This document shows, piece after piece, positions 4,790-38,039 of a stretch of DNA of 48,530 nt. Numbering within the stretch: position 1 is the stretch's first letter; every line of letters starts with the position of its first letter. This DNA comes from Aquipuribacter hungaricus (GTDB taxonomy: Bacteria > Actinomycetota > Actinomycetes > Actinomycetales > JBBAYJ01), in the NCBI RefSeq assembly GCF_037860755.1, contig NZ_JBBEOI010000007.1, positions 1-48,530 on the forward strand, read 5' to 3'. A program made the translations under genes and the position numbers. The notes beneath the pieces are model-generated. The model did no database searches and had not been told where the DNA came from. It saw nothing but the letters and a program-made list of their open reading frames with translations.

Positions 4790-7327
4790 TCAGGCGCTCG
4801 GGGCGGGGTGCACGTGGGCCACGACCGCGGCGGGCTCGCCGTCCGCGGACGCGACCAGGGACACCTGCACCTCGACGTGGACGGGCCTGCCGTCGTGGCC
4901 GACGTACCGCTTGCGGACGGGGGCCTCGGGCGACTTGCCCTCGCGGTGCTGGCCCAGGTGGACCTCGTCGACCGCGCGGTCCTCGGGCCAGGTGATCTCC
5001 TCGACGCGGAGCCCGACCAGGGTGTGGGCCTCGCGGCCGAGCATCGTGGCGAACGCGGCGTTGACACGCTGGATGGTGCCGTCGAGCCCGGACAGCGCCA
5101 TGCCGGTGGGGGCGCCGTCGAAGACGAGCCGGAACGTCTCCTCGGCCTCCCGGAGCCGGTGCTGCGCCTCGACCACCGTGGTGACGTCACGGCAGCGCAG
5201 CAGCAGGGCGGCGTCCATCCCGGGAGCCCGCTCGGGACCGCCGGCGGGCCGCACCGACACCCAGCGGCGTGCGCCGTCGACGTGCGGCATCCGCACCGTG
5301 CCGCCCGCGTGGGCTGGGCCCATGACGCAGCGGCCGGCGACGGTGACGACGGGTCGGTCGGCCTCGTCGACGAGGTCGCCGAAGGGGCGCCCGACCACGT
5401 CGGAGGGCAGGAACCCCAGCACGTCGAAGGCACGGGTGGACACGTAGACGACCCGCCCCTCGCGGTCGACGGCGACGACGAACTCGTCCGACCCGCGCTC
5501 CTCGGGGTGCGGCGGCCGCGGGCGCAGCGCCCGCAGCGTGCCCGTCGTGGCGTCGGCGCCCACCCCGGCGGCCGGGCGCCCGAAGCACCAGCCCTGGCCG
5601 GTGTCGGCGCCGAGCCCGGTGAGGCGGACCGCCTCGACCTCCTCCTCCACGCCCTCCATGCAGACCCGCAGGCCGAGGCCGTGGCAGACCTCGACGAGCA
5701 GGCGGAGGACGAGCGCGTCGGCGACGGTGCCGGAGGACGCGCTGACGAGCGAGCGGTCGACCTTGACGGTGTCCAGCGGCAGCTCGCGCAGCAGGGTGAG
5801 GGACGACCGGCCGGCGCCGAAGTCGTCGAGCGCCACCCGGATGCCCCGGCCGCGCAGGCTGTGCAGCACGGCGGCGGTGCGGGGAAGGTCGTCGACCCCG
5901 GCGGCCTCGGTGATCTCCAGGACGAGCCGGTCCGCGGGCAGCCCGGCCGCGGTGAGGGCGTCGATGACGTCGGTCTCGAAACCCGGGTCGACCAGCTGCA
6001 GCGGCGACACGTTGACCGACACCGACGGCGCCACCCGGCCGACCGCCGCCCAGGTCGCGGCCTGCACGCACGCCGCCCGCAGCGCCCACCGGCCCAGCTC
6101 GAGGATGAGGCCGCCGGCCTCGGCCACAGGGACGAACCGGTCGGGTGGCACGGTGCCCAGCACCCCGTCGTCCCAGCGCGCCAGCGCCTCGAGCTCGACC
6201 ACGGCGCCGGTGGTGAGGTCGACGATCGGTTGGTAGACCAGGTGGAGCCGGCTGCTGGTGCTGCCGTCCAGCGCCTCGCGCAGCCGCCGCTCGATGGTGT
6301 GCCGGCTGGGCCGGTCGTCGGTGGCGGCCTCGGCGACGCGGCGGGCCTCCTCGAAGGTCCGCACCGTGCCCCGGCCCTGGTCCTTGGCCAGGTACATGGC
6401 GGCGTCGGCCTCGGCGAGCATGGCTGCGAGCGCGTCCTCGCCCCGGCCGGCCGCGCGGTGCGTGACGCCGACCGAGGCGCCGACGTGCACGGTCGCCTCG
6501 CCGGTCTGCGCGCCGTCCGGCCCACGCAGCGGGACGGTGAACGGCGCCGCGGCCGCTGCCACGACGCGCCCGGCCAGGGCCAGCAGCGCCCCGTCGCCGA
6601 CGTCGGTGGGGACGAGCACGGCGAACTCGTCGCCGCCGAGGCGCAGCACCACGTCCTCCGAGCGGCAGCAGCGGCGCATCCGGGCGGCGAACTCGACGAG
6701 GACCGCGTCCCCGGCGCCGTGGCCGTAGCTGTCGTTGACGTCCTTGAAGCGGTCGAGGTCGACGTAGAGCAGGGCGGCCGGGGTCGACGGGGCGCGCCGG
6801 TCGAGCAGGTTCATGAGGTGCAGCCGGTTGGGCAGGCCGGTCAGGGGGTCCAGGACGGACTGCCGCGCGAAGGTGCGCGAGAGGCTCTCGAACAGCCGGC
6901 GCACCGGGACGACCCCGGGCCGGCCGTGGTCGTCGACGCACACCACGGCCTCCAGCGACGCGGTGGCGTCCCGGCCGAGCACGGTCGCCGCGGCCTGGTC
7001 GACCGGCGTGGTGGAGGGCAGGACGACGGACGTCGGCAGCTCGACCTGCGAGAGCAGGGTCCGCCGGTGGAGCCGGAGACCCGGCCACGGCCGCTCGCGC
7101 CGCAGGTGGTCCAGGTGCAGCCGGTCGACCAGGTGGAACGCGTCCCCGGCCTCGAGCACGACGTGGCGCAGCCCCGGGTCGTCGTCGAACAGCCGCTCCA
7201 CCCGCTGCAGCGGGTCCGAGGCGAGCACGACGACGGCCGGCTCCGCCAGGTCGGCCAGCACCTGCACGGGCGTCCGCCAGCTCGCGGGGTCGGCGGCGCC
7301 GCGGCTCGCGTGGTCGGCAGCGACCAC
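4790..7327 (-). CDS. Bifunctional diguanylate cyclase/phosphodiesterase (CBS-like, GGDEF, EAL, PAS, PAS)
   Basis: This 845-residue protein makes and/or degrades cyclic di-GMP. Residues ~100-150 look like part of a CBS domain. GGDEF domain ~155-320 carries an intact RLGGDEF (231-235) and the inhibitory I-site RSED (222-225) exactly five residues upstream. EAL domain ~345-590 has the EAL motif at 380-382 and keeps NVSPLQL, ITEAA, LDDFGAG, KVDRSL and GVE, so both activities look catalytically complete. Two PAS-like domains follow (~600-845), an unusual C-terminal position for sensors. No membrane segment is seen. Start GTG 7327 was chosen because GAGGGGGG lies about 9 bases upstream; GTG 7336 would have no spacing to it. 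Confidence 0.88.
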   Translation of the reverse strand: MVAADHASRGAADPASWRTPVQVLADLAEPAVVVLASDPLQRVERLFDDDPGLRHVVLEAGDAFHLVDRLHLDHLRRERPWPGLRLHRRTLLSQVELPTSVVLPSTTPVDQAAATVLGRDATASLEAVVCVDDHGRPGVVPVRRLFESLSRTFARQSVLDPLTGLPNRLHLMNLLDRRAPSTPAALLYVDLDRFKDVNDSYGHGAGDAVLVEFAARMRRCCRSEDVVLRLGGDEFAVLVPTDVGDGALLALAGRVVAAAAAPFTVPLRGPDGAQTGEATVHVGASVGVTHRAAGRGEDALAAMLAEADAAMYLAKDQGRGTVRTFEEARRVAEAATDDRPSRHTIERRLREALDGSTSSRLHLVYQPIVDLTTGAVVELEALARWDDGVLGTVPPDRFVPVAEAGGLILELGRWALRAACVQAATWAAVGRVAPSVSVNVSPLQLVDPGFETDVIDALTAAGLPADRLVLEITEAAGVDDLPRTAAVLHSLRGRGIRVALDDFGAGRSSLTLLRELPLDTVKVDRSLVSASSGTVADALVLRLLVEVCHGLGLRVCMEGVEEEVEAVRLTGLGADTGQGWCFGRPAAGVGADATTGTLRALRPRPPHPEERGSDEFVVAVDREGRVVYVSTRAFDVLGFLPSDVVGRPFGDLVDEADRPVVTVAGRCVMGPAHAGGTVRMPHVDGARRWVSVRPAGGPERAPGMDAALLLRCRDVTTVVEAQHRLREAEETFRLVFDGAPTGMALSGLDGTIQRVNAAFATMLGREAHTLVGLRVEEITWPEDRAVDEVHLGQHREGKSPEAPVRKRYVGHDGRPVHVEVQVSLVASADGEPAAVVAHVHPAPSA

Positions 7328-7981: not shown

Positions 7982-7994
7982 GAACACCGAGGGG

Positions 7995-8036
7995 GCTGGC
8001 GGTGGGACTCGAACCCACAACCGCCCGATTACAAGT
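7995..8036 (-). repeat. attL: 3' half of tRNA-Thr(UGU) (42-bp direct repeat, left copy)
   Basis: Identical to 38041-38082. On the minus strand it covers tRNA positions 31 to 72 (anticodon loop, variable loop, T-arm and acceptor 3' strand). Beyond 8036 the sequence diverges from a tRNA, so this copy is a truncated remnant. Base 7994 would give C at discriminator position 73, whereas the right-hand copy gives U. Confidence 0.92.
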
Positions 8037-8131: not shown

Positions 8132-8149
8132 GTTAGCAAGGCGTTAGCA
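8132..8149. repeat. Arm-type direct repeats GTTAGCA x2 (left end)
   Basis: GTTAGCA occurs at 8132-8138 and 8143-8149, 11 bp apart and about 95 bp inside attL. The same pair occurs near attR at 37961-37979 with the second copy in the same context (GGCGTTAGCA). This is the expected layout for integrase or excisionase arm-binding sites. Binding itself is inference. Confidence 0.6.
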
Positions 8150-8676: not shown

Positions 8677-9852
8677 ATGCAGGCCGTGAGCTCGCTGGAT
8701 CAGACCATCATCGGCCTCGTGCCGTCGTTGTCAAGGAGCCTTGCGGCCCAGTTCAACGTGTTTCGCGTCATGCGCCACGGCACCCACGAGAAGCAGTTGT
8801 CGAACGTCTTCGCCTGGCTCCTGGACGCCGACGCGACGCATGAGCTGGGGGACCGCGGCCAGCGCATCTTTCTCGAGTTGGTCAACAACTCCTCACCCAT
8901 CGGAACGGCGCTCCCGACCTCGGGCTACACAGTCACTCAGGAGGTCAACACCCTCGGGCCACAGTTGCCGGGCAAGGACATCGCCGACATCGTGCTGACC
9001 GGTCCGGACGCGTGTGTGGTGATCGAGAACTACGGCACGTCTGACGGCCACGACCACGACTACTACAGCTACCTGGAGCACGGGAGACTTCGTGCTAAGA
9101 ACGCCGTGGTCGTCCTTCTCTGCGCGAGGCACGAACCCCACCTGCAAACGGCGGGCTGGGACGAGGCGACAGTCGTCACCTACGGCGATCTGCTGAGTGG
9201 ACTCCAGAGCGCGGTTCATGATGACCGCGGGTGGAAGCGCAACCATCCGCAGCAGCACTCTTCCCTTGACCAGTTGTTCCAGCACTTCCTGAAAGGGCCC
9301 GCTGCCTTGGACCTCGACGACCGTATCGCCTTCCTCACCACCATGTGCGAGACCGGGGAGTCCGCGCGCTACGGCTATCGGCCGCAGGACGTTGCCGCGC
9401 AGGAGTTCGCGGAGCTCGTAGCACAGCACGCCAGGCGGCAGTTCGACGAGGGGCGCCAGGCCCTCTCGGAACTCAAGCGCTCGTTGAAGACTTTCGCTCA
9501 GACGACCCTCTCCGACCAGCTGAGCGAACGCGTGTCCTCGGGTCGCGTGGTCAAGGTCGAAGCGCGCTTCTCCGGCCAGTGGGAGTGGGGGGTAGCCCTG
9601 CGGCGCGCTGATTCCTCTCCGACCCTTTTCATCGTGTTCGGTCCTACCGTCGTCGCCGAGAACGCGCTCGTCCCCGTGCCCCTGGAGGCGCCGGACTTCA
9701 AGAAGTTGTTCGTCGTTCGGCAGGCACCCACCGGTAGCGGCCTCGACTGCATCCTTCAGACAGAGGTGCTCCTCACCGAGGTCTTTGACGGACTGCCGCG
9801 TGAGGACGTGCGGCTGCGCGACGCGCTCCTCGAGCTCATCGCCCTGGACTGA
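8677..9852 (+). CDS. PD-(D/E)XK nuclease-superfamily-like protein (PDDEXK_4 type)
   Basis: This 391-residue soluble protein shows the layout of PDDEXK_4-type nuclease-fold proteins: an N-terminal THEKQLSNVFAWLLD helix (36-50), an acidic strand VTQEV (Glu89), GKDIADIVL (99-107; Asp101/Asp104 candidate metal ligand) and CVVIEN (113-118). The usual ENKI-type lysine after the Glu is replaced by Tyr-Gly (ENYGTSDGHDHDYYSYLEHG), so the classic E-x-K signature is missing. Either a variant active site is used or the fold is non-catalytic. It stands alone just inside attL, a typical cargo position, and could be a defence or abortive-infection gene. ATG 8677 was chosen; GTG 8689 is an alternative. No strong ribosome site is seen. 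Confidence 0.6.
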   Translation: MQAVSSLDQTIIGLVPSLSRSLAAQFNVFRVMRHGTHEKQLSNVFAWLLDADATHELGDRGQRIFLELVNNSSPIGTALPTSGYTVTQEVNTLGPQLPGKDIADIVLTGPDACVVIENYGTSDGHDHDYYSYLEHGRLRAKNAVVVLLCARHEPHLQTAGWDEATVVTYGDLLSGLQSAVHDDRGWKRNHPQQHSSLDQLFQHFLKGPAALDLDDRIAFLTTMCETGESARYGYRPQDVAAQEFAELVAQHARRQFDEGRQALSELKRSLKTFAQTTLSDQLSERVSSGRVVKVEARFSGQWEWGVALRRADSSPTLFIVFGPTVVAENALVPVPLEAPDFKKLFVVRQAPTGSGLDCILQTEVLLTEVFDGLPREDVRLRDALLELIALD

Positions 9853-9952
9853 GTGGCTCACAGTGGCTGGGGCAAGCTCGACGTCAACGCCACCCCAGTC
9901 ACGGATGACCACGCCCTCGCAGACCGCCCGAACAAGCCCGATGCGAGCGCGC

Positions 9953-9971
9953 TGCGGACCAGGTGCGGACC
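9953..9971. repeat. Second arm-type repeat set, left pair (TGCGGACC x2)
   Basis: TGCGGACC at 9953-9960 and 9964-9971, an 11-bp period. A matching pair lies at 10182-10200 on the other side of the tRNA-Thr(CGU) fragment. Together they look like integrase arm sites flanking a second attachment core. Confidence 0.55.
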
Positions 9972-10040
9972 ACCTCGGCTTGATCGCCCCTTGGACCGAC
10001 CCATACCGTTCCCGAGAGCGAATGAACTGCCGCGTTGCCG

Positions 10041-10085
10041 TGGAGCCACCTAAGGAAGTCGAACCCTTGACCTTCGCATTACGAG
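10041..10085 (-). other. 3' half of a tRNA-Thr(CGU): fossil attachment core
   Basis: Read on the minus strand this is a numbering-perfect tRNA 3' half: anticodon loop CTCGTAA (anticodon CGU, Thr), 3' anticodon stem TGCGA, 5-nt variable loop AGGTC, T-stem AAGGG, T-loop TTCGACT, T-stem TCCTT, acceptor AGGTGGC, discriminator T and encoded CCA. The 5' half is absent, because the bases upstream (10086-10090, GTCAA) do not pair as an anticodon stem. They instead form an inverted repeat TTGACCT/AGGTCAA across the anticodon loop (10067-10090), a typical tyrosine-recombinase core. It is not a functional tRNA; it is best explained as an attachment-site remnant. Confidence 0.75.
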
Positions 10086-10181
10086 GTCAACCCGTTGGTA
10101 TTGATTAGGGCCACCGTTTCATCCTCACCAGTCCGGATACTCGTGGTCCTTCTGGTTCCCGAGTGGGTGCCTCGGTCGCAG

Positions 10182-10200
10182 TGCGGACTCGCTGCGGACC
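10182..10200. repeat. Second arm-type repeat set, right pair (TGCGGAC x2)
   Basis: TGCGGAC at 10182-10188 and TGCGGACC at 10193-10200, again with an 11-bp period, mirroring 9953-9971. The intervening 9853-10300 stretch has no gene and otherwise holds only the tRNA-Thr(CGU) fragment. Confidence 0.5.
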
Positions 10201-10300: not shown

Positions 10301-11926
10301 TCACGCCGGAACCTTGATCGGCAGTGGCGCCTTAGACGCGTCGTCGACCCGGCCCAAGTAGATGTCCGACGATCCAATACGCGTGCAGACGTCCCCGTCG
10401 GCGTCGATCCAGAGTCGTCCCCCCTCAGGTCGAATCCGCAGGAAACTTTCCACCAGCTCCGCTTCGCGCTTTGGACCCACCCGATCGCCGAGCGTGCCTT
10501 CACGCCCCCTGGGCCGGCAGATTTTCTTGCGGAGGGTAGAAAGCACCCATACGTCTTCGCCACGGAGGTAGGGCCACACATCCCCGGGCCGCAGGAGCTC
10601 GTCAGAACCCGAAAACTGATTGCCTGGGACTACAACGTTTCTTCCGTTTCGGATTCTAACGAACTCGTCAATCTGTTGCTGCAGCCACTTCCGCCTCTTT
10701 GCGAAGTTGAGCCATCGCGCACCCAGCGATTGCAGTGCGCTAATCATTTGTTGACTTTCATCATCGAGCCGAGACACCTCGTCCGCATAGGCTTTCGTGC
10801 GGATGAGAGACTTGTACGCGGCCATGTGCCTCTTCAGATCTGCCGCCGACCCTTCGCCATCCACCACGTGGTGCTCTGGGACTCCCAGGCCATCAAACAA
10901 TTCGATGACTTCGGAGGTCATGTCCTCCATCGACGCCGCGGCTTCTCGGGCGGTCTTGACGAGCTCCAACGCATCTGGAGCAAGCCCTCCGTCGATTCCG
11001 TCAAGTTGTGCCTTGAAGTCGCTGGACGTTCCCGCTAGCCCAATTGCGACGGCGTACAGTCGGGCGAAAGTTTCGGCAAGGAGAGGGGTGAGGGTATATC
11101 CACGCGCCTGTTCGACAGCCAATTCTCCGGCCGTCTCATCAAGTATGACCTGGTGCCGCTCACGAATCTCGTTCTCCTGCTGAAGTCGCACGATCGAGGA
11201 CTGGGCGGCCTCAAGTCGTCCGACAAGCACAAGCCGCTCTTGCTCGACGCCCGAGTACGAGGCAAGCTCCGCGTCCAAAGCCGCGGCTCGGTCTTGAACC
11301 CGCTCCAGCTCTTCTTCGGCAGCGATTGCCCGGGCGCGCTCACGATCCTTCTCAGCGTCAAGCGCCCTTTGCCTTTCCACTAGGCGTGCGACCTCTGCCA
11401 CGGATAGTTGGACAATTGCTTCACCAGAGAGCAGAAGTTGCAGTTGCTCACTAGTAGCCTGGACTTCGAGCCGACAGGGGAGGCGAAGCGTGTTCGCCAG
11501 GCGACTGAGGGTTGCCAGGCCCGCAGCACACGACCTAGGCATGGCCTCTTCTGAACCCATGTCATAGTGGGCGAGGCGATTGCGTAAGCTTAGCGCCTCT
11601 CCCAATTTATGCTTGCTCGAGACCTGCCATCCCGGAAACGCCGCTCTAGCCGGCGAAGCAGGATTCAATAGTTCCTTAAGCCAAAAGGCTGGGTCTTGCA
11701 CAACCCCACTCGAAGCTTGCACCCCGTCGGACCACGTCTCGCCGACGGCTCGGTGCATCTGTGGGGCGCATCTGGACGCTAAGTCCTGACCGACAATTCG
11801 CAATATGGCGTCCAGCGCGCCCCGAAGGCTGTCCACGTGTAGATCGCTGGGCACGCGGATCCTGAGCTCGTGCTGCTCTGGTAGTTCGGTCACGTCATCG
11901 TCCGTCGACGCCTCGTCGGAGGCCAT
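10301..11926 (-). CDS. Swt1-type HEPN and coiled-coil protein
   Basis: A 541-residue cytoplasmic protein. The N-terminal ~125 residues resemble a Swt1-like HEPN domain: LRGALDAILRIVGQDLASRCAPQMHRA then ALSLRNRLAHYD, where R115 and H120 form the R-x4-H pair of HEPN RNases. A long charged coiled coil follows (~175-265, repeated E/R/A heptads). The C-terminal half contains a second helical region and a basic tail (LRKKICRPRGREGTLGDR...) with a GGRLWIDADGDVCTRIG beta segment. No family name fits the whole. ATG 11926 is preferred over an in-frame TTG at 11965; GGAGAGGG lies 14 bases upstream. It is convergent with the nuclease-fold gene, and its base composition is lower in GC than the transfer genes. 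Probable defence cargo, by inference. Confidence 0.6.
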   Translation of the reverse strand: MASDEASTDDDVTELPEQHELRIRVPSDLHVDSLRGALDAILRIVGQDLASRCAPQMHRAVGETWSDGVQASSGVVQDPAFWLKELLNPASPARAAFPGWQVSSKHKLGEALSLRNRLAHYDMGSEEAMPRSCAAGLATLSRLANTLRLPCRLEVQATSEQLQLLLSGEAIVQLSVAEVARLVERQRALDAEKDRERARAIAAEEELERVQDRAAALDAELASYSGVEQERLVLVGRLEAAQSSIVRLQQENEIRERHQVILDETAGELAVEQARGYTLTPLLAETFARLYAVAIGLAGTSSDFKAQLDGIDGGLAPDALELVKTAREAAASMEDMTSEVIELFDGLGVPEHHVVDGEGSAADLKRHMAAYKSLIRTKAYADEVSRLDDESQQMISALQSLGARWLNFAKRRKWLQQQIDEFVRIRNGRNVVVPGNQFSGSDELLRPGDVWPYLRGEDVWVLSTLRKKICRPRGREGTLGDRVGPKREAELVESFLRIRPEGGRLWIDADGDVCTRIGSSDIYLGRVDDASKAPLPIKVPA

Positions 11927-12289
11927 TGAGCGTGCACGGCCCTCTCCGCCTACTCGGCCTAGCAACAGACCCGATCAGCCGTACAGGTCGCCTCGGGTTG
12001 GCTCGTCTAGACAGGTGGGCCTGAACCTGGCTACCGTGTAGCAGGGGCGGAGGTCGCGCGGCTGACCTGCCGTCGCCATTCTCTCCCAGGCCATTCGGAT
12101 AACGGGTATGACCGCTGTCCACAGACCGTCGTGTCGCTCACACGGAGAGCGACGTGGTCGCTACCGTCGAACCCGCCCACATGGGTGCAAGTCACGTCGG
12201 TTCGTCTCTGCCATCCCACCCGCCCGGTGGACCAGGGTCGTAGTGGCTCGGGGGATCCACCGGTCTGACCTCGTTTGAGGAGACCTGTC
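11927..12289. other. Divergent intergenic region; leader of the transfer operon
   Basis: 363 bp between the divergent HEPN gene and the pilin-like gene. It holds a 7-bp hairpin GTCGCTC/GAGCGAC (12133-12153) about 137 bp before the pilin start, and a GAGGAG ribosome site at 12276-12283. Promoters for both directions must lie here, but I see no unambiguous -35/-10 pair. Confidence 0.4.
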
Positions 12290-12563: not shown

Positions 12564-12920
12564 GTGCTGATCAGCAACGACGACGCCATCTGGCGATACC
12601 AGCCACGCCTGATCGACCTGCGCGGCTGGACCGTCATCGGCCAGCCCCGGTACAGCGTCCTGGCCATCGGCGCCGCCGTCACCTTCCTCGTCTCGATCCC
12701 GCTGCTACCCGTCTTCGGCCTGTGGCCGGGAGGGCTCTACGCCTTGGCTACGGGGTTCGTCGTCGGCTACCTGCTCGCCCCGCACTTCACCGCCGAACGC
12801 CCGCTTATCTCGTGGCTCGCCTATGCACGCGGCGAGGTGCGAGCTGCTCGCCACTGGCTCCGCTGCCGCCACACCGCGCGCAGAGCCGCACCGCGCACGC
12901 ACGTCTTCCCGGGGGACTGA
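12564..12920 (+). CDS. Small membrane protein, VirB3/PrgI-like candidate
   Basis: A 118-residue protein starting at GTG 12564. An N-terminal cytoplasmic stretch (ISNDDAIWRYQPRLIDLRGW) is followed by a hydrophobic hairpin (YSVLAIGAAVTFLVSIPLLPVFGLW...GGLYALATGFVVGYLLA), then a basic C-terminus. The two-helix hairpin placed directly before a VirB4-type ATPase matches VirB3/PrgI proteins, which anchor VirB4 at the membrane. Homology is inferred from topology and gene order, not from motifs. The stop at 12918-12920 is one base from the next ATG. Confidence 0.5.
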   Translation: MLISNDDAIWRYQPRLIDLRGWTVIGQPRYSVLAIGAAVTFLVSIPLLPVFGLWPGGLYALATGFVVGYLLAPHFTAERPLISWLAYARGEVRAARHWLRCRHTARRAAPRTHVFPGD

Positions 12921-12921
12921 C

Positions 12922-14976
12922 ATGACCGCAACCACACGGCTGCTCCGCCGCCGCGCTGGCGCCACCCGGCGCCCCAGGCCACAGCCGTTCGCACGGCTCC
13001 TGGGTGCTCCCGTCGCCGGCGGTGGTGTCGACTTCCCGCCGCTGCCGCTCGCACTGCGCGGGATCGAAGGCTGCATCTCGATCACCCGGAACGGGCTGCG
13101 TGCCTGGTACCGGCTAGGACCACAGCAGTGGTCGTGGCAGGGCGACGACCGGCGCGAGAACCTCATCCGGCAGATCGGCGACACGTACTCCGCCCTCGCG
13201 GGCCGAAACCTCCACATCCGGACCGTCCAGCGCCCTTACCCGATCCACCAGTGGGCGAAGGCGCTGGCCGAGGACACCCCCCACCCGTCGAGCCGCGACG
13301 ACTGGGGGCAGCACCTCGTCGACGTGCAGCGCCACCTGCGCGGGTCGACGTTCTCTGACACCGAGACTTACGTCGGCGTCAGCCTCACCCCCGCCCACCG
13401 CGGCGACCGCATCACCGCCCGCACCCGCGCGAAGGTCGACGCCGACCTGGTCCGCGTCGACGCGCTCATGGCCTTCCCCGGCCTTGACGCCGTGCAGGCT
13501 GAGCAGCACGAGGTCGAGTGGCTCGTCCACCGCAGCCTGGGCCTGGGGCTCCCGCAGCCGCACACCGTCGTCGACGGCATGACCGTCCCGGTCGAGACGT
13601 CCGACCTGACCATGTTCACCGGCACCCTCGACGTCGACCCGTCCCCCGGCAAGCCCTACGTCCGCTTAGTCGCCCGCCCCCAGCGCACGGGCGACGCCAT
13701 CCCGCTCGAGCGGTACGCCACCGTCCTCACCGTCGGGCGGATGGAGAACCTGATCATCCCTCAGACCCACCTGCCGTGGATGGCCTACGCCGACTCCCTG
13801 CCCTTCCCCGTCGAGTGGTCCGCTCAGGTTCGGCTGCTCTCCGGCCGCGAGGCCGCGACTGCGATGCAGACCCGGATCGACCAGGTCGTCGATCAGGAGC
13901 AGCAGTACATCGCCAGCAGCTCCGTCGAGGTCCCGCCGGCCCTGCGCCGCACCGGGGAGCAGGCACGCGCGACCGCCGACGAGATCGCCGACGGCGGCGC
14001 CCACGCCGTGGCCCGGGTCGACGGCCGTTTCCACACCGGCGTCACCGCCTCCTCACCCGCCGAGCTCGAGGACCGCGTCAACACCGTCCTCAACCGCTAC
14101 CGCGAGTACCGCATCGAGCTCCACCGCGACCCCGACCAGCACGGCCTGCACCGCGAGTTCGTCCCCGGCGAACCAGCCGCATCCAGCGCCCACCGCCGCC
14201 GCGGCAAGACCGAGCTCCTCGCCGGCGCCCTGCCCCACCTTTCCAGCACGGTCGGCACCCGCGACGGCTCCTACATCGGCTACACCGTCGGCACCTCCCG
14301 CCGCGCGGTCGCGTGGAACCTGCACCACGCGATGGAGGTCCGCGAACGGTCCGGGTTCACCCCCGTCATCGGCGGGCTCGGGTCCGGCAAGTCCGTCGTC
14401 GTCGGCTCGCTGGCCTACGACGCCACCCTCCGCGGGATTAGCACCACCATCTTCGACCCGTCCGGCCCGCTGGCCCGGCTCACCCGTATCCCTCAGATCG
14501 CCGACGTCTCCCAGCACATCGACCTGCTCCGCTCCGCCCCCGGCACCCTCTCGCCGTACACGGCGGTCCCCGAACCAGAACGGGCCAACCTCGTGGACGA
14601 CGAGAGGCTCATCGGCCTCACCGGCGCCGAGTACGAGGCGATGCTCGACGAGGTCTACACCGACGCCCGGCACCTGGCCCAGCGTCGCCGGCTGCAGCTG
14701 GCCACCGACACCCTGCGTCTGCTTCTCCCGCCGGAGATCCGCCGTGCCCCGGGACGCCAGCCTCATCGTCCGCTCCGCGGTCCGCGCCGTCGGCGGCCAA
14801 CACACCGCCTCACTCATGAGCGTGCTGCAGGAGATCAAGCGCGACCCCCGCGACGCGGACCACGAGATCTACGACGTCCTCACCGACATGTCCGAGTTCC
14901 CCTCAGCCCGACTGTTCTTCGAGGTCGGCTACCTCGCCGAGAACCGCGCCGCCCGCGCTGCCCACGGCGCACCTGA
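12922..14976 (+). CDS. VirB4-type conjugation ATPase, N-terminal part (frameshifted)
   Basis: This frame starts at ATG 12922 and carries the membrane-proximal domain and the first half of the motor. Walker A GGLGSGKS is at residues 484-491, in PVIGGLGSGKSVVVGSLAYDA, followed by STTIFDPSGPLARL. The protein reads sensibly to about residue 607 (LRLLLPPEIRRA), after which this frame turns into Arg/Pro-rich nonsense to a stop at 14976. The proper continuation is one base ahead, in the frame of 14744-15721. The break coincides with a CCCC run at 14747-14750. Whole gene 12922-15721 would encode a ~930-residue VirB4-like protein energising the secretion channel. Confidence 0.75.
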   Translation: MTATTRLLRRRAGATRRPRPQPFARLLGAPVAGGGVDFPPLPLALRGIEGCISITRNGLRAWYRLGPQQWSWQGDDRRENLIRQIGDTYSALAGRNLHIRTVQRPYPIHQWAKALAEDTPHPSSRDDWGQHLVDVQRHLRGSTFSDTETYVGVSLTPAHRGDRITARTRAKVDADLVRVDALMAFPGLDAVQAEQHEVEWLVHRSLGLGLPQPHTVVDGMTVPVETSDLTMFTGTLDVDPSPGKPYVRLVARPQRTGDAIPLERYATVLTVGRMENLIIPQTHLPWMAYADSLPFPVEWSAQVRLLSGREAATAMQTRIDQVVDQEQQYIASSSVEVPPALRRTGEQARATADEIADGGAHAVARVDGRFHTGVTASSPAELEDRVNTVLNRYREYRIELHRDPDQHGLHREFVPGEPAASSAHRRRGKTELLAGALPHLSSTVGTRDGSYIGYTVGTSRRAVAWNLHHAMEVRERSGFTPVIGGLGSGKSVVVGSLAYDATLRGISTTIFDPSGPLARLTRIPQIADVSQHIDLLRSAPGTLSPYTAVPEPERANLVDDERLIGLTGAEYEAMLDEVYTDARHLAQRRRLQLATDTLRLLLPPEIRRAPGRQPHRPLRGPRRRRPTHRLTHERAAGDQARPPRRGPRDLRRPHRHVRVPLSPTVLRGRLPRREPRRPRCPRRT

Positions 14977-15721
14977 GCCGACGCTGCTGGTTTTCACCCT
15001 CGGCGGGCTCACCCTCCCGGAGCCGGACGCGGAGGAGACGAACTGGAGCGAGGACGAACGGATCAGCGTCCCCCTGCTCAGCCTCGCCGCCAACTACGCC
15101 TCCCGACGGGTCTACGGCCGACGCATGGGCGAACGGAAGGTCGTCGTCATCGACGAGGCCCACGCCCTGCGCCGCACCCCCGCCGGCCGCGCCCTGGTCG
15201 AACGATTTGCCCGCGACTCGCGCAAGTGGAACACCCGCGTCCTCGCCGCCTCCCAGAAGCCCAGCGACCTGCTCAGCCTCGAGGCCGGCGGCCTCATCGA
15301 CGAGTGCGTCATCGGCGGCATCGAAGACCCCGCCGGAGCCGCCGGCGCGCTCCAGCTCGCCCGCATCCCCACCGGCCTCGGCTACGAACGCGCCGTCGCC
15401 ACCCTCGCCCTCGGCGGACTCCGCCCGAACGTCGGCCGCGGCCGCACCGGGGCGCGTGACTTCATCCTGCGTGACGCCGACGGCTACACCGAACGTGTCC
15501 GCTGGGACCTCGGCCACCTCCAGCACGTCCTCGACGCCCTCGACACCACCGCCGTCGGCAACCCCACCACCGCACCCACAGAAGCCCAGCTCGTCGAGCA
15601 GCGCACCGGCAGGCGGGCCCTGCACACCGTCGAGGCCGCGCCCACCGTGGACCTGCGCCCTGCCGTCGCCGTTACGGAGTTGGACGCCGACGCCGACGCC
15701 GTGGACTGGAGCATCGCGTGA
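14744..15721 (+). CDS. VirB4-type conjugation ATPase, C-terminal part (frameshifted)
   Basis: The C-terminal half of the ATPase starts sensibly at RDASLIVRSAVRAV. It contains Walker B KVVVIDEAHAL (near 15140-15165), the downstream VLAASQKPSDLL sensor segment typical of VirB4/TraC proteins, and a C-terminal domain ending just before the VirB6-like gene. GTG 14744 could start a separate polypeptide, but no ribosome site precedes it. Re-joining requires a single +1 shift at the CCCC run. Three readings remain: a disabling mutation, a base-call error, or slippage on the proline codon. Its stop overlaps the next start (GTGA at 15718-15721). Confidence 0.75.
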   Translation: MPRDASLIVRSAVRAVGGQHTASLMSVLQEIKRDPRDADHEIYDVLTDMSEFPSARLFFEVGYLAENRAARAAHGAPEPTLLVFTLGGLTLPEPDAEETNWSEDERISVPLLSLAANYASRRVYGRRMGERKVVVIDEAHALRRTPAGRALVERFARDSRKWNTRVLAASQKPSDLLSLEAGGLIDECVIGGIEDPAGAAGALQLARIPTGLGYERAVATLALGGLRPNVGRGRTGARDFILRDADGYTERVRWDLGHLQHVLDALDTTAVGNPTTAPTEAQLVEQRTGRRALHTVEAAPTVDLRPAVAVTELDADADAVDWSIA

Positions 15722-17682
15722 GCCACCGGCCGGTCGTGTCCCGGGTGCTCGCAGTCCTGGGGATGCTCGTCGTCGCAATCCTCTTTGGGGCAGCGCCAGC
15801 GTCCGCCGCGGTCCCCATGCTTCCCATCCCCGGGCTGCCGTCGTGCCAGAACCCGCCCGTACCGCAGTCCCCCGACCGCGGGTTCAGCGGCTTCATCACC
15901 CCCCGCCCGACCGACCCGCCACCGCTCGAGGCCGACCCGTTCGCCGAAGGCGCCACGACCGGTGTCTACGAGACGACCGGCCTCGCCGGCTACCGCTGGT
16001 CGATGTACGTCGACTCCTGCGTCCCCGGCCCCGGCCAGGCCACCAACTCCGCCCTCACCTCGACCGCCAACAGCATCATGGCCTGGCCCGTCCTGGCCGT
16101 CGGGTTCGTCGCCACCCTCGCCGACGTCGTCTACAACCAGACCTGGCTCGACCAGCTCGACGCCCCCGTCGGCTACGTCTCCAACGCCCTGTACGAGGGC
16201 TTCACGCAGCCGTTCTTCCCCGTCCTCGCCGTCGCCGTCGGCGTGGTCATGATCGTCAGCATCCGCCGGGCACGGCTGTCCGCCGCCATCAGCACCGGCA
16301 CCCTCGTCCTCGTCGCCGCCACGCTGGCCGCGTTCGCCGCCAACTACCCCACCCGGGTCGCCGACCTCACCGACTCCGTAACCTCGGGGGCCATCACGTC
16401 GGTGAACCGCGCCATCGTCGGGACCGAGGGCGCCGACCCGAGCGCCGCCACCGTCCGGCCGCTCGTCGACGCAATCCTTTACGACCGCTGGGTCGCCGGG
16501 ACGTTGGGCGACACCACCTCTTCCACCGCCCGCGAGTACGGCCCCGTCCTCTTCACCGCCTCCACCCTGACCTGGGCCGAGACCGACGTCGTCCGCACCG
16601 ACCCCAACGGCGCTGGCGCCGAGCTCATCGAGGCCAAGCAGGACCAGTGGCGCGAGGCCGCCGAGGCGATCAAGGCCAGCGACCCCGACGCCTACGAGTA
16701 CCTCACCGGCGCCCGCAGCCTGGACCGGATCGGGCACGCCATCGTCGCTTTCGCCCTCATGGGCATCCTGCCCATCCTCGTCATGAGCCTCGTCCTCGTG
16801 GCCATGAGCTACCTGATCATCCGGCTCGTCGTCATGTTCCTGCCCCTCGTCGCGCTCATCGCCCTGCTGCTGCGCGGCACCCTGCGCGGGGTCCTCAGCC
16901 TCTGCGCCGCTGCGCTGATCAACAGCATCGTGTTCGCCGTCGGCGCCGCGGTCACCGCTTACCTCTACGGGGTCTTCTTGTCCCCGGACACGGGCCTGCC
17001 TGCCCTGCTCGGCATCCTGCTCGCGTTCCTCGTCGGCATCGCGATGTGGATCATCCTCAGCCCCTACCGGCGCCTGACGACCATGGTCCGCGGCACCGAC
17101 GCCGTGAAGACCACCCGCGCCGAGTACGCCCGCACCAAGCGCGGCGCCACCAGCTTCGTCAGCCGCGCCGGCACCGTCGCCCTCGGCGTCTTCGCCGGCA
17201 ACCGCGCCACCGCAGCCGCCGAACAAGCCACCACGCCCGGCAACACGCCCACCGTCCCCTTCGAGCCCTACCGCTACGGGCCCGGCGAGATCCGACCCGA
17301 GCACGTCGCCGCGCCCGCGTACGACGAGCGAGCCGTCGACCGCAGCGGTCCCCCGGCCGAGCTCCCCGGTCCGGCTCCGGCACCCGCTCTGACAGGCCCA
17401 CGCTCCGCTATGCCCCGGCCGCTGCCCGGCCCCCGCCGCGCCGTCGTCCCCGAATCGGCCTCAAGGTCTGCTCGAGGTCCTGCCGAGCCTGACGACGTCG
17501 ACCCCCGGACATCGGACCGGCGGCCTGAGATGGCACCGCTGCTGGACTTCGATCCGGTGGTCGTGGACGGCCGTAGCGTCGCCGTCATCCACACCCTCGA
17601 CGGCCCCGTCGTCGACCTTGCCGACACCGACCGTGCGGTCGTCGCCGGCGAGGTCACCTCCGCCACCTCCCAGGCACGTTGA
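15718..17682 (+). CDS. Polytopic membrane protein, VirB6/TrbL-like
   Basis: A 654-residue protein with a cleavable-looking signal (VLGMLVVAILFGAAPASAA), an extracytoplasmic Pro/Gly-rich region, then six to seven hydrophobic helices (~120-445, for example IMAWPVLAVGFVATLADVV, FFPVLAVAVGVVMIVS, LVLVAMSYLIIRLVVMFLPLVALIALLL). The C-terminal ~200 residues are hydrophilic and Pro-rich. The build and the place right after VirB4 fit the VirB6/TrbL inner-membrane channel component of type IV secretion systems. Starts at GTG 15718, overlapping the VirB4 stop by 4 bp, and its own stop overlaps the next ATG. Confidence 0.68.
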   Translation: MSHRPVVSRVLAVLGMLVVAILFGAAPASAAVPMLPIPGLPSCQNPPVPQSPDRGFSGFITPRPTDPPPLEADPFAEGATTGVYETTGLAGYRWSMYVDSCVPGPGQATNSALTSTANSIMAWPVLAVGFVATLADVVYNQTWLDQLDAPVGYVSNALYEGFTQPFFPVLAVAVGVVMIVSIRRARLSAAISTGTLVLVAATLAAFAANYPTRVADLTDSVTSGAITSVNRAIVGTEGADPSAATVRPLVDAILYDRWVAGTLGDTTSSTAREYGPVLFTASTLTWAETDVVRTDPNGAGAELIEAKQDQWREAAEAIKASDPDAYEYLTGARSLDRIGHAIVAFALMGILPILVMSLVLVAMSYLIIRLVVMFLPLVALIALLLRGTLRGVLSLCAAALINSIVFAVGAAVTAYLYGVFLSPDTGLPALLGILLAFLVGIAMWIILSPYRRLTTMVRGTDAVKTTRAEYARTKRGATSFVSRAGTVALGVFAGNRATAAAEQATTPGNTPTVPFEPYRYGPGEIRPEHVAAPAYDERAVDRSGPPAELPGPAPAPALTGPRSAMPRPLPGPRRAVVPESASRSARGPAEPDDVDPRTSDRRPEMAPLLDFDPVVVDGRSVAVIHTLDGPVVDLADTDRAVVAGEVTSATSQAR

Positions 17683-18212
17683 TGCTTGCCGCACGGGGAC
17701 CGCGCCTCGCCGCAGCCGTCGTCTTGGGCGCTGGTGCCCTCACGGCAGTCCTGCTCGGCAGATCAACCAACGACCCCCAGGCAGTGCCAGCGCTCCCACC
17801 GGCCGCCCCCAGCGACGCCCCGCTCGCGACGCCTGAGTCCGAGACTGATCCCGCACCTAACCCAAGCGCGTCCACCGGTGCAGGTAGCCCCGAAGCCACC
17901 GAGCCGGAGATCGTCGCGGCCGACGCCGTGGTCGCCTGGCAGCAACAAGACCTGGCCGCCCGGTCGAACGGCCTGGCCACGACAGCCACACCTGCCTATC
18001 AGCAGGCAGCAGCGGACATCGAACCTTCCCGAGTTCCCACCTCGCCCCTCACGGAGACCAGCCTCCGCGTCGAGGCCGACGGCCAGGCCCTCGTCGACGT
18101 CCAGCTTGAGGACGGCACCGCGCTAGTCGCCCTCCTTGTGCAGGACGAGACGGGCTGGCTGCTCGACGACCTGCAGCCCGTCGACGGGCCCGACGCCGCC
18201 GGAGCCCCCTGA
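17682..18212 (+). CDS. Membrane-anchored VirB8/TcpC-like small protein
   Basis: A 176-residue protein: one N-terminal hydrophobic anchor (LAAAVVLGAGALTAVLLG), a Pro/Ser/Thr-rich linker (~30-75), and a compact C-terminal domain (AADAVVAWQQQDLAARSNGLATTATPAY... LVDVQLEDGTALVALLVQDETGWLLDDLQPVD) resembling the NTF2-like fold of VirB8/TcpC components. The fold call is inference from pattern. ATG 17682 overlaps the VirB6-like stop (ATGA), and the gene's own stop overlaps the next start by one base, so it is fully within the transfer operon. Confidence 0.5.
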   Translation: MLAARGPRLAAAVVLGAGALTAVLLGRSTNDPQAVPALPPAAPSDAPLATPESETDPAPNPSASTGAGSPEATEPEIVAADAVVAWQQQDLAARSNGLATTATPAYQQAAADIEPSRVPTSPLTETSLRVEADGQALVDVQLEDGTALVALLVQDETGWLLDDLQPVDGPDAAGAP

Positions 18213-19483
18213 TGTGGGAAGCCCTCGCGCTTCGCGCCGCCGGTGCCGTGCCGTGGAAGAAGCTCGTCGCGGTGGCCCTGGCCGTCCCGCTGCTGCTCGG
18301 CCTTAGCGTCGGCTCCGCGCTCATGAGCTCCACGCTCGAGGAAGAGGCCACCGACGTCCGAGGCGAATGCACTGTCACCATCAACCCGACCGGGCTCTCC
18401 ATCGCCGGCCTCGACCAGACCCAGCTCCAGCACGCCGCCACAATCGTGGAGGTCGGCCGGCAGAAGGGCATACCCGAGCAGGGCATCCGCGTCGCCTTGG
18501 CTGTCGCCGCGCAGGAGTCCAAGTTCCGTAACTACGCCAACGACGGCACCGGCCAGCTCCGCCCCGACCAGCGCGACGTCTCGCGCTCCCTGAACTACCC
18601 TCACGACGCCGTCGGCCGCGACCACGGCAGCGTCAACGTCTTTCAGCAGCAGTACCCCTGGTGGGGCACCCTCGACGAGCTGATGGACCCCAGCTACGCC
18701 GCCGGCAAGTTCTACGACACCCTCGTCCAGGTCCCCGGCTGGCAGCAGATGCCCCTCACCATCGCCGCGCAGAAGGTGCAGCGCTCCGCCTTCCCCAACG
18801 CCTACGCCCGCTGGGAGCCGCTGGCGGGCGAGATCTTCACCGCGCTGAGCAGTACCACCGTCCCGGCCGCGCAGCCTCCCAGCCCGGCTGCGTCTCCGGA
18901 CCCGGAGCCCCGCGGTGTCCAGCCAGCTGCTGGCGCTGCCGTGGACCCGTGTGCGACTCGCGCCATCCCGGCCGACTTCGCCGCGCTACCCGGGGAGGAC
19001 GTCGGTCAGGTGGCCGTCAACGCGGCTGCGCAGTGGATCGGCACGCCCTACTCCTGGGGAGGGGGCACGATCTCCGGTCCCTCGGAGGGCTTCGCCCAGG
19101 GCGCAGGGATCGTCGGCTTCGACTGCTCCGGACTCATCCTGCACGCCTGGTATCAGGCCGCCGGCATTCGTCTGCCGCACAGCTCCGTCGCCATCGAGGC
19201 CATGGGCACGCGCGTCGACCCGTCCCAGGCTCAAGCGGGTGACGTGCTGTCCTTCGCCATCGGGGGCAGCCGGGTCAGCCACGACGGCCTCTTCGACGGC
19301 CGCGGCGGCATGGTCCACGCACCTCGCACCGGCAAGACCGTCGAGTACGTACCCGACGTGCTCAACCACCCGTACTGGTCAACCGTCCTTGTCAGCGTCA
19401 CGCGCCCACCGCTCCCCGCCGACGACGGTGCATCAGCCGGGGCTTCGCGACTGCCCGCCGAGCGTCCTACGGTCGCCTCATGA
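18212..19483 (+). CDS. Conjugative cell-wall hydrolase: lysozyme-like plus NlpC/P60 endopeptidase
   Basis: A 423-residue protein with an N-terminal membrane anchor (LVAVALAVPLLLGLSVGSAL). A lytic-transglycosylase/lysozyme-like domain follows (~70-205; GIRVALAVAAQESKF with the candidate catalytic Glu, later GSVNVFQQQY). After a Pro/Ala linker comes an NlpC/P60 domain (~265-395) with Cys305 in GFDCSGLI and His357 in VSHDGLF. Such two-domain enzymes (as in Tn916 or pIP501 systems) open the peptidoglycan locally for the secretion channel. Both active sites look intact. ATG 18212 overlaps the previous stop, and its stop overlaps the next ATG. Confidence 0.85.
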   Translation: MWEALALRAAGAVPWKKLVAVALAVPLLLGLSVGSALMSSTLEEEATDVRGECTVTINPTGLSIAGLDQTQLQHAATIVEVGRQKGIPEQGIRVALAVAAQESKFRNYANDGTGQLRPDQRDVSRSLNYPHDAVGRDHGSVNVFQQQYPWWGTLDELMDPSYAAGKFYDTLVQVPGWQQMPLTIAAQKVQRSAFPNAYARWEPLAGEIFTALSSTTVPAAQPPSPAASPDPEPRGVQPAAGAAVDPCATRAIPADFAALPGEDVGQVAVNAAAQWIGTPYSWGGGTISGPSEGFAQGAGIVGFDCSGLILHAWYQAAGIRLPHSSVAIEAMGTRVDPSQAQAGDVLSFAIGGSRVSHDGLFDGRGGMVHAPRTGKTVEYVPDVLNHPYWSTVLVSVTRPPLPADDGASAGASRLPAERPTVAS

Positions 19484-19933: not shown

Positions 19934-21070
19934 GTGAAGTTTCGAGGTCGACGTCGCCTACTCCAGCGGCACCGCCGTGACGCTGCTTACGGGGACAACC
20001 TCACCAGTCCCGCTCAGGGATTCTTCCGGGACGCCCGCAATTGGAATGGCTTGGAGCCCGTTGAGCTAGCGAAAGCATACATAACCAACTACGTCGACAG
20101 TGGCCTACTCGACAGAGTGGGCAGTGAACGCGTGAGAGGTGGGGACGGCGCCTTTCACCTTTCGGTCATTTCCGATCAAGCCTCCATAGAGCTGCTGGCG
20201 AAACGCGGACCGCTGGTATCCGACCGCCTTGTAATCTCTCACTCCGCGCCTAGCGACGGATCTCCGTCTCTTGCAGACCGGGTTAGCCGGCGCGAGCATC
20301 CGCCCCGACTGGTCTCACAGTGGCGGGACGGCGCCCTATTCGGCACGACGGAAGAGGTCTACGCCTATTGTGGTGGTCTAGCGAATCTAGGTATCTTCTT
20401 GAAGGACGCCGCGCCCATCTTGGAAGCCGGCCTCGTCACATACCTCCCCCGCGTTGAGAGGCACGTCGCGCGCTCCGAGCCAGGCAGTTCTATATGGCCC
20501 TCGCCTCCTGACGTGCTTAGTGAGACGGATCTTCTTGCAGATCTTGTGGTTACCAATGGCAGAGTCGTTGACATTGTTCAAGACGCCTATAAGGCTCGTT
20601 TGCTGCAGCCGCTGTTAATGCTGGACCTTCCGTGCATCGAGGGGACCAGCCTTCGCGATTATTGCACGATCCTGGTCCAGGAGGCTAACGCGCTCGACTC
20701 GCTGCAGCATTACTTACGTCCGAAACTGATGGCAGTCACAGCGAGCGGTGATCCGAACGAATACAACGCGCAACTCGCCCTATTGTCGAATGAGATCTCC
20801 GATGGAGTCCGTCTACTCCAGAGCGAGCTGCGTAAAGCCTCCCGCGTCAACGCCGTGCAAGCGTCGGGCGGAAGCCTGGCTGTGTGCACAGCGGCACTCG
20901 TAGCTCTGGATGTAGCCGCCTTGGCGGACGCGGCGAGTGTGGTCGGTGTCGGTGGCGGAATCTGGGCGCTGGTGACTGCTGTACAAAACCGCTTGGAGGG
21001 GCGAGCGGACGTTCGCGAGCGACCGCACTACTTGTTTTGGCTTTTGGACAAGCAAGCGCGACCCGCATAA
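19934..21070 (+). CDS. Unknown cargo protein with C-terminal hydrophobic hairpin
   Basis: A 378-residue protein starting at GTG 19934. The N-terminus is very basic (KFRGRRRLLQRHRRD), the centre is helical without recognisable motifs, and residues ~325-355 form one or two membrane-like helices (GGSLAVCTAALVALDVAALADAASVVGVGGGIWALV). Codon use is clearly less GC-biased than in the transfer operon just upstream (codons such as ATA, TTA and CTA occur), suggesting separate acquisition. It is the first gene of the cargo block, 88 bp after the transfer operon and convergent with the HEPN gene. A membrane-associated effector in a defence or exclusion role is possible; nothing in the sequence proves this. 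Confidence 0.5.
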   Translation: MKFRGRRRLLQRHRRDAAYGDNLTSPAQGFFRDARNWNGLEPVELAKAYITNYVDSGLLDRVGSERVRGGDGAFHLSVISDQASIELLAKRGPLVSDRLVISHSAPSDGSPSLADRVSRREHPPRLVSQWRDGALFGTTEEVYAYCGGLANLGIFLKDAAPILEAGLVTYLPRVERHVARSEPGSSIWPSPPDVLSETDLLADLVVTNGRVVDIVQDAYKARLLQPLLMLDLPCIEGTSLRDYCTILVQEANALDSLQHYLRPKLMAVTASGDPNEYNAQLALLSNEISDGVRLLQSELRKASRVNAVQASGGSLAVCTAALVALDVAALADAASVVGVGGGIWALVTAVQNRLEGRADVRERPHYLFWLLDKQARPA

Positions 21071-21894
21071 CTCACTGTCGGTGCTGCTGTCCTGCTCCTG
21101 GCAACGTGCTGCTGTGGCCGATCTGCCCGAACGGACGAGTCGTTCGTCGTCTCCCGTCGCCTCACTGCGCAGAGCGAGGCGGTTGCCCTCGGCCGAGTCG
21201 GGCGGCCCTGTGGAGCATCCGTGCCTACCGCACCGCCGCATCCCCGCTCCACCGTGCCGTCCTCGAAGAGGCGAACGCCCCTTCGCTGCGGTGTGAGCGA
21301 ACCGCCAGACTGCAAGCCTGAGAGGGAGGCGAGTGAAGCGGCTACGGGGAACCTGTTGCACAGGTGAGGCACCGTGCTTCGGTTCTGGTGCACTTTCGGC
21401 TTGCCACGGCAAGTTCCCGGAGTCTGCACACTCACCCCCCTCGTTGCGAACGTAGGCACACCGGCCGGGTACATCCCTCGACCAAGCAATGAATGACGTC
21501 TTGTGACGTCGCGGTGGGGGGCGTGGCGCCGGTCCCGCTGACTCTCCGCTGACGCTGAATGGCTCGCGGGGCTTGGGGTTGCCCCCAATTCAGGTGGTGT
21601 GGGTGGTGATCCCGTCGCGTCGGCCAGGTGGGTCGTTAGCCGACCCGGTACCGACCTGTCCGGGATGACGGAGTCACCGCGTAGCGGCCGCAGGTCCTGA
21701 ACAGGTCGGTACCGGGGCGGCTGACCTGTGGCTGGCCGGCGCGACGGGATCACCGCCCTGGCGCCTTCCCGCATCCCGGAGCCGAGGCCGGGTTTGGGGG
21801 CGCACCCCCGGCTCACTCTCACAGCACCACGTCAAGGATTGGGCGCTTGTCGAGAGATCGGGCAGACACGACTGCGTCGTTCGTCCACGTTCAC
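21071..21894. other. Non-coding stretch with inverted repeats
   Basis: 824 bp between convergent genes. Long open frames here translate to low-complexity Arg/Ser/Pro-rich products with no domain and are rejected. The notable structure is the hairpin plus 15-bp inverted repeat at 21630-21715. Confidence 0.45.
21630..21715. repeat. Nested inverted repeats (oriT or replication-origin candidate)
   Basis: A 15-bp perfect inverted repeat CCGGTACCGACCTGT (21645-21659) and ACAGGTCGGTACCGG (21701-21715) is separated by 41 bp. A short hairpin GGGTCG-TTAGC-CGACCC (21630-21646) sits directly before the left arm. Origins of transfer and rolling-circle origins often look like this, but no nick sequence can be assigned. 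Confidence 0.4.
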
Positions 21895-26500: not shown

Positions 26501-26931
26501 TCCTTCTCGCGGAAGTTCACGACGTGAAGCAGATGCTCCTCGCCCTCTGACAGGCAGAAGAAGAGCAGGTCCGGAAGCGCCCACTGGGCGTGGGTACCGC
26601 TGCCCTTACGTGCGCGCTCGTTCTTGACGAGGCGCTGCACCAGGCGCCGGATTGCCCCGACCGGGAGGCGGCCCCCGTCAAACTCCAGAACCCAAACGCC
26701 GAAGTCCTGATCTTTCTTGAGCTGAGGAATCTGGGAGATGTGCCTGAGCTTCGCAACCTTCTCCGGGTCAAGGTGAAGTTCCTCAGGCTCCCATTCGAGC
26801 TGTAGGTCGTCCCATGTGAGGCCGTCTGGTATCGGCCAGTCCAGACCGTCGAGGAGCAGGGTGAGCAGGTGCTCGGTCGATTGCGGTGCTGCCCTGAGCA
26901 ACTGACGGAGTCGGGTCTCGTTGGCGGTCAT
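23527..26931 (-). CDS. N6-adenine DNA methyltransferase with ISP-like specificity domain
   Basis: An 1134-residue protein. The ~350-residue N-terminal region has no named domain. The catalytic domain has SAM motif I MFDPANGTGTFLVEWL (from residue 425) and motif IV NPPY (535-538, in IGNPPYDR), so an Eco57I-like gamma-class adenine methyltransferase. The C-terminal part (...VVPKWLGYRMAKAVG... TTW... ELTQIVAVIRRTLAL) resembles the specificity domain of type ISP enzymes such as LlaBIII. Unlike those single-chain enzymes it carries no helicase or evident nuclease; these are in the overlapping partner gene (26928-30014, ATGA overlap). Together they likely form a restriction-modification system. ATG 26931 is fixed by the overlap. 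Confidence 0.8.
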   Translation of the reverse strand: MTANETRLRQLLRAAPQSTEHLLTLLLDGLDWPIPDGLTWDDLQLEWEPEELHLDPEKVAKLRHISQIPQLKKDQDFGVWVLEFDGGRLPVGAIRRLVQRLVKNERARKGSGTHAQWALPDLLFFCLSEGEEHLLHVVNFREKDGKRVLSVLSWSNEPTQARIDLLVQRGVPDLVWTPPGGPRIVLSPEFGKGFHGYREGIKSAKALSARMAQVAQDVRDEVRVLHEIEIEGGPIRALFTDVRERLLGDLTPERFADVYAQTMVYGLLTARIAHPEEFKADRSISALTFDNDFLDAIYSRFRDDSDGVIDVDELGLNELAEQLASTDVDELLADFGADNQRDDPVVYFYEEFLAQYDPEQRRNLGAFYTPLPVVRFIVKTVDDALKSFGLPLGVADSTTWAKYVADHPEIKVPNRAMPDDAVVSMFDPANGTGTFLVEWLRQAKRNDEKRGEAAGLSHASACEISLASYAVSHLKVSLDISDELREKTRLPIYLGDTLGARHPHVIEGLGDPISTEGARADEVKYEWNHNVLIGNPPYDRVESMGTGGFVTSLQEGASRSLFDDIFDDARRHVIFSAHASLYNLYVYFWRWAIWKVFEENSGPAVISMITASSWLDGPGFLGLRRLAREVADDIVVVDLHGDNKGTRKDENVFDIESPVAIVTLIRRGNGDRSQPGRVHYASYRGTRAKKLQALTDMAAGKTNLETAEARADWHAPFIPASGGLDWAAYPRLIDLFPWQQPGAMVSRTWPVAPSVSMLEERWRAFVATSVPEERLKNFAPSKTGRTITTKVSGMVPLAELKPGAPHQPIVPFGMRSFDRQWTFRDPRVAKTESPSLWASLSDRQVFLTTMTTTRLGAGPAATLTTAVPDKHFFCGRGGKDAIPLYRDTVGTPNTSPATIKALSATLGTAVTGEHLFAYVFAVLAGADYTERFRDALETPGPRVPLTADAGLFARMVSLGQELIWLQTFGERFGTGEVPTAGVEWGPEPTRLPTAKFDIAFDPATETLHVADGALTGVTEAVWNFEVSGMDVVPKWLGYRMAKAVGRAASSESPLDRIRPTTWAPEWSTELTQIVAVIRRTLALIADGVALLDEIIASPLVSADDLPAVPDALRQPPKSGGADTGQDELSFDDEA

Positions 26932-37984: not shown

Positions 37985-38039
37985 CGCTCTTCCCGCAGCT
38001 CGCTCCAACGAGGGTGGACGAAGCCGCAGGTCACGGGGG

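Follow-up and report, generated by a model that had tools for sequence, protein, structure and literature searches.

A stranded TGCGGAC-arm attachment site with a tRNA-Thr(CGU) core, probably left by a lost integrase, inside an actinomycete integrative element

When an ICE changes its target, this is usually deduced from integrase trees that do not match, and the exchange of integration modules is frequent in these elements (PMC4701971). Actinomycete ICEs (AICEs) combine RepSA, FtsK, Xis and Int with a tRNA target, and tandem AICEs of Frankia excise together (PMC3218068), while the tripartite ICEs of Mesorhizobium form one circle with more than one attP (PMC5882170). An att site that was left behind with readable arms would record a change of target, or a fusion, inside one element. 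Here, we describe a candidate of this kind at positions 9953–10200 of the window, i.e., the whole 48,530-nucleotide stretch of Aquipuribacter hungaricus contig NZ_JBBEOI010000007.1 that was analyzed.

The first-pass annotation placed the site inside an element, and this was borne out: the surrounding element (about 30 kb) extends between a 47-bp repeat (7991–8036) and the tRNA-Thr(TGT) gene (38038–38112). In two same-genus genomes compared for an empty tRNA-Thr(UGU) site, the tRNA is present and its flanks are not clearly syntenic; therefore, the element ends rest on the direct repeat. The main features of the element, apart from the internal site, are as follows.

7991–8036, minus strand: attL core of the present element, tRNA-Thr(UGU) 3' half (47-bp repeat, 98%, with 38036–38082)
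8132–8149, plus strand: GTTAGCA x2 arm pair of the present integrase, left end (P')
10301–11965, minus strand: orphan 554-aa protein on the P' side of the internal site
12823–19483, plus strand: Gram-positive-type conjugation cluster with a VirB4/TcpF-like ATPase, a CD3337/EF1877-like membrane protein (weak profile hits for these two) and NlpC/P60
32722–34470, plus strand: FtsK/SpoIIIE-type DNA translocase
34467–36329, plus strand: RepSA-type replication initiator (PF20199, 3.2e-85)
36319–36609, plus strand: excisionase-like HTH_17 protein
36725–37984, plus strand: present tyrosine integrase (PF00589, 4.8e-25; ~31% identical to the TGCGGAC-arm integrase of host contig C10)
37961–37979, plus strand: GTTAGCA x2 arm pair of the present integrase, right end (P)
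38038–38112, minus strand: tRNA-Thr(TGT) gene, attR of the present element

The right part of the element is an AICE module (FtsK-like, RepSA, HTH_17 excisionase and tyrosine integrase genes), and the left and middle parts hold a PD-(D/E)XK nuclease gene, the orphan protein (no relatives in 393 other genomes of the class, plasmids and viral contigs), the conjugation cluster, and genes for a type IIG restriction enzyme and a PLD/SNF2 helicase. The RepSA, FtsK-type translocase, Xis, tyrosine Int and tRNA 3' end of an AICE are all in place, and in addition to the FtsK-type translocase there are T4SS-type genes (VirB4/TcpF-like and CD3337/EF1877-like, both weak profile hits, and NlpC/P60); no relaxase was identified among the proteins scanned. 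The type IIG restriction-methyltransferase and the neighboring PLD/SNF2 helicase (23527–30014; DrmD-like hits) form a defence-like pair, and an 80-aa stretch in 21028–21822 is 75% identical to one in the AICE on contig C10 of the same host (L130:17809–18048). Because the present integrase has its own arms at both ends (GTTAGCA copies at 8132/8143 lie 123/134 bp from TCGAACC, those at 37961/37973 lie 94/82 bp from it), there is a full modern att system in the element, and it is not the one at 9953–10200. The parts of the 9953–10200 site are listed below.

9953–9970, plus strand: left (P) arm pair TGCGGACCAGGTGCGGAC (motif and spacing recur in at least 119 loci)
10041–10085, minus strand: core, tRNA-Thr(CGU) 3' half, positions 32–76 with CCA (similarity to the host gene)
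10067–10090, no strand assigned: TTGACCT/AGGTCAA inverted repeat across the core, possible core-type site (the L216 attP is without the repeat)
10182–10199, plus strand: right (P') arm pair TGCGGACTCGCTGCGGAC (pattern search with shuffle control)

The arms are four TGCGGAC heptamers that form two perfect TGCGGAC-N4-TGCGGAC pairs with an 11-bp period, one on each side of the core. The pairing, the two-sidedness and the period had been described correctly in the first-pass annotation, which overstated the motif by a small amount: three of the four copies read TGCGGACC, whereas the copy at 10182 reads TGCGGACT. Chance repeats were ruled out by shuffle, Markov and reversed-pattern controls. The window has two copies of the 18-bp pair pattern, compared to none in 100 shuffles; not one of 3000 Markov sequences of window length contained a 7-mer that formed two pairs with an 11-bp period, and the arm plus T-arm pattern gave 4 matches in 149 genomes (the host's own and its relatives), compared to 0 for the reversed control. 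From arm start to TCGAACC, the distances are 106/95 bp on the left and 123/134 bp on the right.

On the minus strand, 10041–10085 reads CTCGTAATGCGAAGGTCAAGGGTTCGACTTCCTTAGGTGGCTCCA, a gapless 45-nt tRNA-Thr(CGU) 3' half, and the first reading of a numbering-perfect half (32–76 with CCA) was right in coordinates and content. The host gene against which its identity was to be checked was found intact on another contig (G000:C159, L002:1501–1575, minus strand, anticodon CGT) and is identical at 41/45 positions (93% over 44 bp, E 9.5e-12), with four differences at positions 43, 61, 69 and 76; the CCA is not encoded by the host gene, and no TGCGGAC arm pair was found at its sides. Position 61 of the core is U, compared to C61 in 195/195 tRNAs scored in the loci examined; U61 occurs in 0/35 distinct tRNA-Thr(CGU) genes and A43 in 0/12 of the closest. 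A tRNA rebuilt with the core half would be expected to contain a G53-U61 pair. One tRNA-Thr(CGU) core match was obtained in the window, with no second CGU-type end found in the element, and no other RNA family matched the site at E<=1. The inverted repeat that had been reported across the core is present (halves 10067–10073/10084–10090); however, it was dropped as an att-site diagnostic because the homologous L216 attP lacks it.

Using a contig scan for TGCGGACNNNNTGCGGACN{73,103}TCGAACCC (i.e., the arm pair, 73–103 bp, and TCGAACCC), we found the arm pair at a matching distance from a tRNA T-arm in at least 119 genome loci. Most of these are actinobacterial, and most lie at tRNA genes, which are of many kinds. 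This pattern reveals a large tyrosine-integrase group that uses many tRNAs. Among the loci listed, pattern lengths cluster near 103, 114–116 and 126 bp, about one helical turn apart. A profile built from the integrases of these loci identified an adjacent integrase in 74 of the at least 119 loci, some of the others being truncated at the edge of the stretch examined. The last codons of the integrase contain the arms in most of these 74 loci and read ..ADxLRT... Genes intervene between integrase and arm pair in L005 (a ParA-like ATPase), L060 and L120 (an M78/capP-like peptidase); thus, overlap between the arm and the integrase gene is not required.

Sites with TGCGGAC arms and no integrase exist elsewhere among the loci examined. 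An Acidimicrobiia MAG contig (G395:C68; L062/L205/L210/L213/L235–L237; 35118, 53523 and 87632) has a tandem array at tRNA-Ala(TGC). The array includes one attR and two TGCGGAC sites with arms on both sides, at 35118 and 53523, which lie at the ends of tandem att-bounded segments. No PF00589 integrase was found on this 101-kb contig, and the array possibly comprises integrase-less elements that are served in trans. In Mycolicibacterium bacteremicum, an element at tRNA-Pro(CGG) does have an integrase (G394:C32 6248–19773; L013, L061), and its left end is a double-armed junction (6248–6505), the end of a tandem att-bounded segment, with ars-like genes (an SBF symporter and a low-molecular-weight phosphatase); no integrase was found in the 6 kb beyond that junction.

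The first-pass annotation had staked its reading on an integrase with these arms at tRNA-Thr(CGU), and two of the loci listed provide one: L069, a Nocardioidaceae MAG contig, and L216. Other integrated elements at tRNA-Thr(CGU) are common in the class, mostly with other arms. The window site had no match in phage or plasmid records, and of the three viral contigs with an arm and T-arm, none has a Thr(CGU) core. In L216, a two-sided attP lies after the integrase (PF00589, 7.1e-16); its core is that of tRNA-Thr(CGU), and it aligns with the window site at arms and core (arm start to TCGAACC, 108/97 and 135/146 bp). The L089/L216 contig is filed under a Mucilaginibacter MAG, yet its integrase and attP are of actinobacterial type, and it is probably misbinned. 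The host itself has a 14.4-kb AICE at tRNA-Arg(UCU) on contig C10, with TGCGGAC arms at both ends and arm distances (107 bp left, 124 bp right) that differ by no more than 1 bp from the 106 and 123 bp at the window site. The present integrase is about 30% identical to the integrase of this AICE, and of the six further integrase matches in the host, not one was found next to tRNA-Thr(CGU). Given its two-sided 11-bp-period pairs and a tRNA 3'-half core at the distance typical of the group, the window site is well supported as an att site of this foreign integrase group.

There is no integrase beside the internal site or ending in its left arm. A working module would require such a gene, whereas the site itself does not, and it was therefore classed as a site without its module. 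Two features precede the left arm.

8677–9852, plus strand: PD-(D/E)XK_4 nuclease gene, at the expected place of the old integrase (weak PDC-S26 match)
9899–9971, plus strand: possible frameshifted 3' end of a lost integrase gene, ..DDxxALADR..ADQVRTTSA* (blastn to the L216 integrase)

Between the end of the nuclease gene and the left arm there are 100 bp, of which the last 50 bp are similar to the 3' end of the L216 integrase gene (blastn, 76% over 63 bp, E 2.4e-4, arms included), and an arm-anchored alignment to L216 with the arms excluded gave p of about 7e-4, the best among the integrases tested. Neither a nucleotide profile search nor a family-sum test (rank 101 of 1500) was significant for an integrase remnant; therefore, we grade the 3'-end remnant upstream of the left arm as possible. 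An unanchored alignment to the C10 integrase was not informative as remnant evidence.

In tyrosine recombinases, the arms bind the N-terminus of the integrase, and strand exchange within the core takes place at the anticodon loop. We interpret the window site as the stranded att site of a lost TGCGGAC-arm tyrosine integrase that used tRNA-Thr(CGU), with a probability of roughly 70%. The N-terminal domain of this integrase would have bound the two arm pairs and its catalytic domain would have carried out strand exchange where the core corresponds to the anticodon loop; a circle with the site would thereby join the tRNA-Thr(CGU) gene and restore its 3' half. The element, or a fusion partner, would once have been integrated at tRNA-Thr(CGU); the TGCGGAC-arm integrase may have been removed by a deletion that nearly reached the arm pair, and its role may have passed to the GTTAGCA-arm integrase, which has a separate attP (tRNA-Thr(UGU)), so that the old site came to lie about 2 kb within the element. 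Either module exchange or the fusion of two elements could have been the route, and the presence of both AICE and T4SS-type genes agrees with fusion without proving it. No sister element that shares the flanks, has the integrase in place and could thus order the events was found among the relatives searched. The first-pass proposal that the element once used tRNA-Thr(CGU) and later switched gains from the existence of the TGCGGAC integrase group, its members at this tRNA, the two-sided architecture, and a present integrase and target that differ. The switch itself, however, is one of two histories, and the site could equally have come with a fused element, as that annotation allowed.

The missing integrase, U61 and the possible frameshifted integrase tail indicate that the site is probably a relic, with decay modestly supported, and the four intact arm heptamers argue that the relic is not very old. 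A long-dead site need not keep such heptamers, and the integrase-less TGCGGAC-arm sites elsewhere leave room for use in trans. A live second attP of this kind, by which a circle with two attP would enter tRNA-Thr(CGU) through the TGCGGAC-arm integrase of another element, is also favored by the resident TGCGGAC-arm AICE, by integrase-less sites that include an array without a PF00589 match on its contig, and by the known circles with several attP in tripartite ICEs (PMC5882170). However, a tRNA rebuilt with U61 and A43 would probably be impaired, the integrase of the resident C10 AICE is located at tRNA-Arg, and a tRNA-Thr(CGU) integrase was not found in the host genome, which together make this use improbable. 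We regard as somewhat more doubtful still the extended proposal that the element has two keys, its own integrase for tRNA-Thr(UGU) and a second complete attP that borrows foreign TGCGGAC-arm integrases for tRNA-Thr(CGU), as part of a wider integrase-less habit.

Within the preferred reading of a stranded att site, a tentative variant is that the site is the junction of two elements that stood in tandem at tRNA-Thr(CGU), were excised together and were later recruited to tRNA-Thr(UGU). Two-sided arms at G394:C32 6248–6505 and at G395:C68 35118 and 53523, the joint excision of Frankia tandem AICEs (PMC3218068), and the combination of AICE genes with a T4SS-type cluster are consistent with this variant, whereas the single core match, with no second CGU-type end in the element, speaks against it. 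Such a junction and an attP would look the same, so the window site may have been either; because tandem junctions look alike at these three places, the first-pass inference that two-sided arms mean an attP and not attL or attR was too strong, although the complete two-sided architecture stands. Plain tRNA debris or chance repeats, for which nothing speaks beyond the tRNA half itself, are refuted by the arm-pattern controls and by two-sided arms at group-typical spacing, and we consider them hardly credible.

The arm motifs are searchable across genomes, which may reveal more such sites, and TGCGGAC sites without an integrase make hitch-hiking in trans testable. Compared to the TGCGGAC-arm attPs of L216 and the C10 AICE, the window site has the same paired heptamers, 11-bp period, two-sided arrangement and tRNA 3'-half core, at arm distances that are equal or shifted by about one helical turn; it differs in having no adjacent integrase, in its U61 core, and in being embedded in an element with another att system. 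The element shares RepSA, FtsK, Xis, Int and a tRNA target with other actinomycete ICEs, including tandem AICEs, and differs from them by its T4SS-type cluster and by the additional att site for a second tRNA (PMC3218068). As in ICE module exchange, a new integrase and target are found on an old element; such exchange is inferred from integrase incongruence, whereas here the old att site itself may remain (PMC4701971). Like the tripartite Mesorhizobium ICEs, it would place more than one attP on one circle, but in those ICEs every attP is functional and paired with an integrase of its own, whereas here one site is without an integrase (PMC5882170). For an AICE to contain a second, still readable att site for a different tRNA is unusual, although each ingredient is known: the mechanism is ordinary, and the evidence is unusually well preserved.
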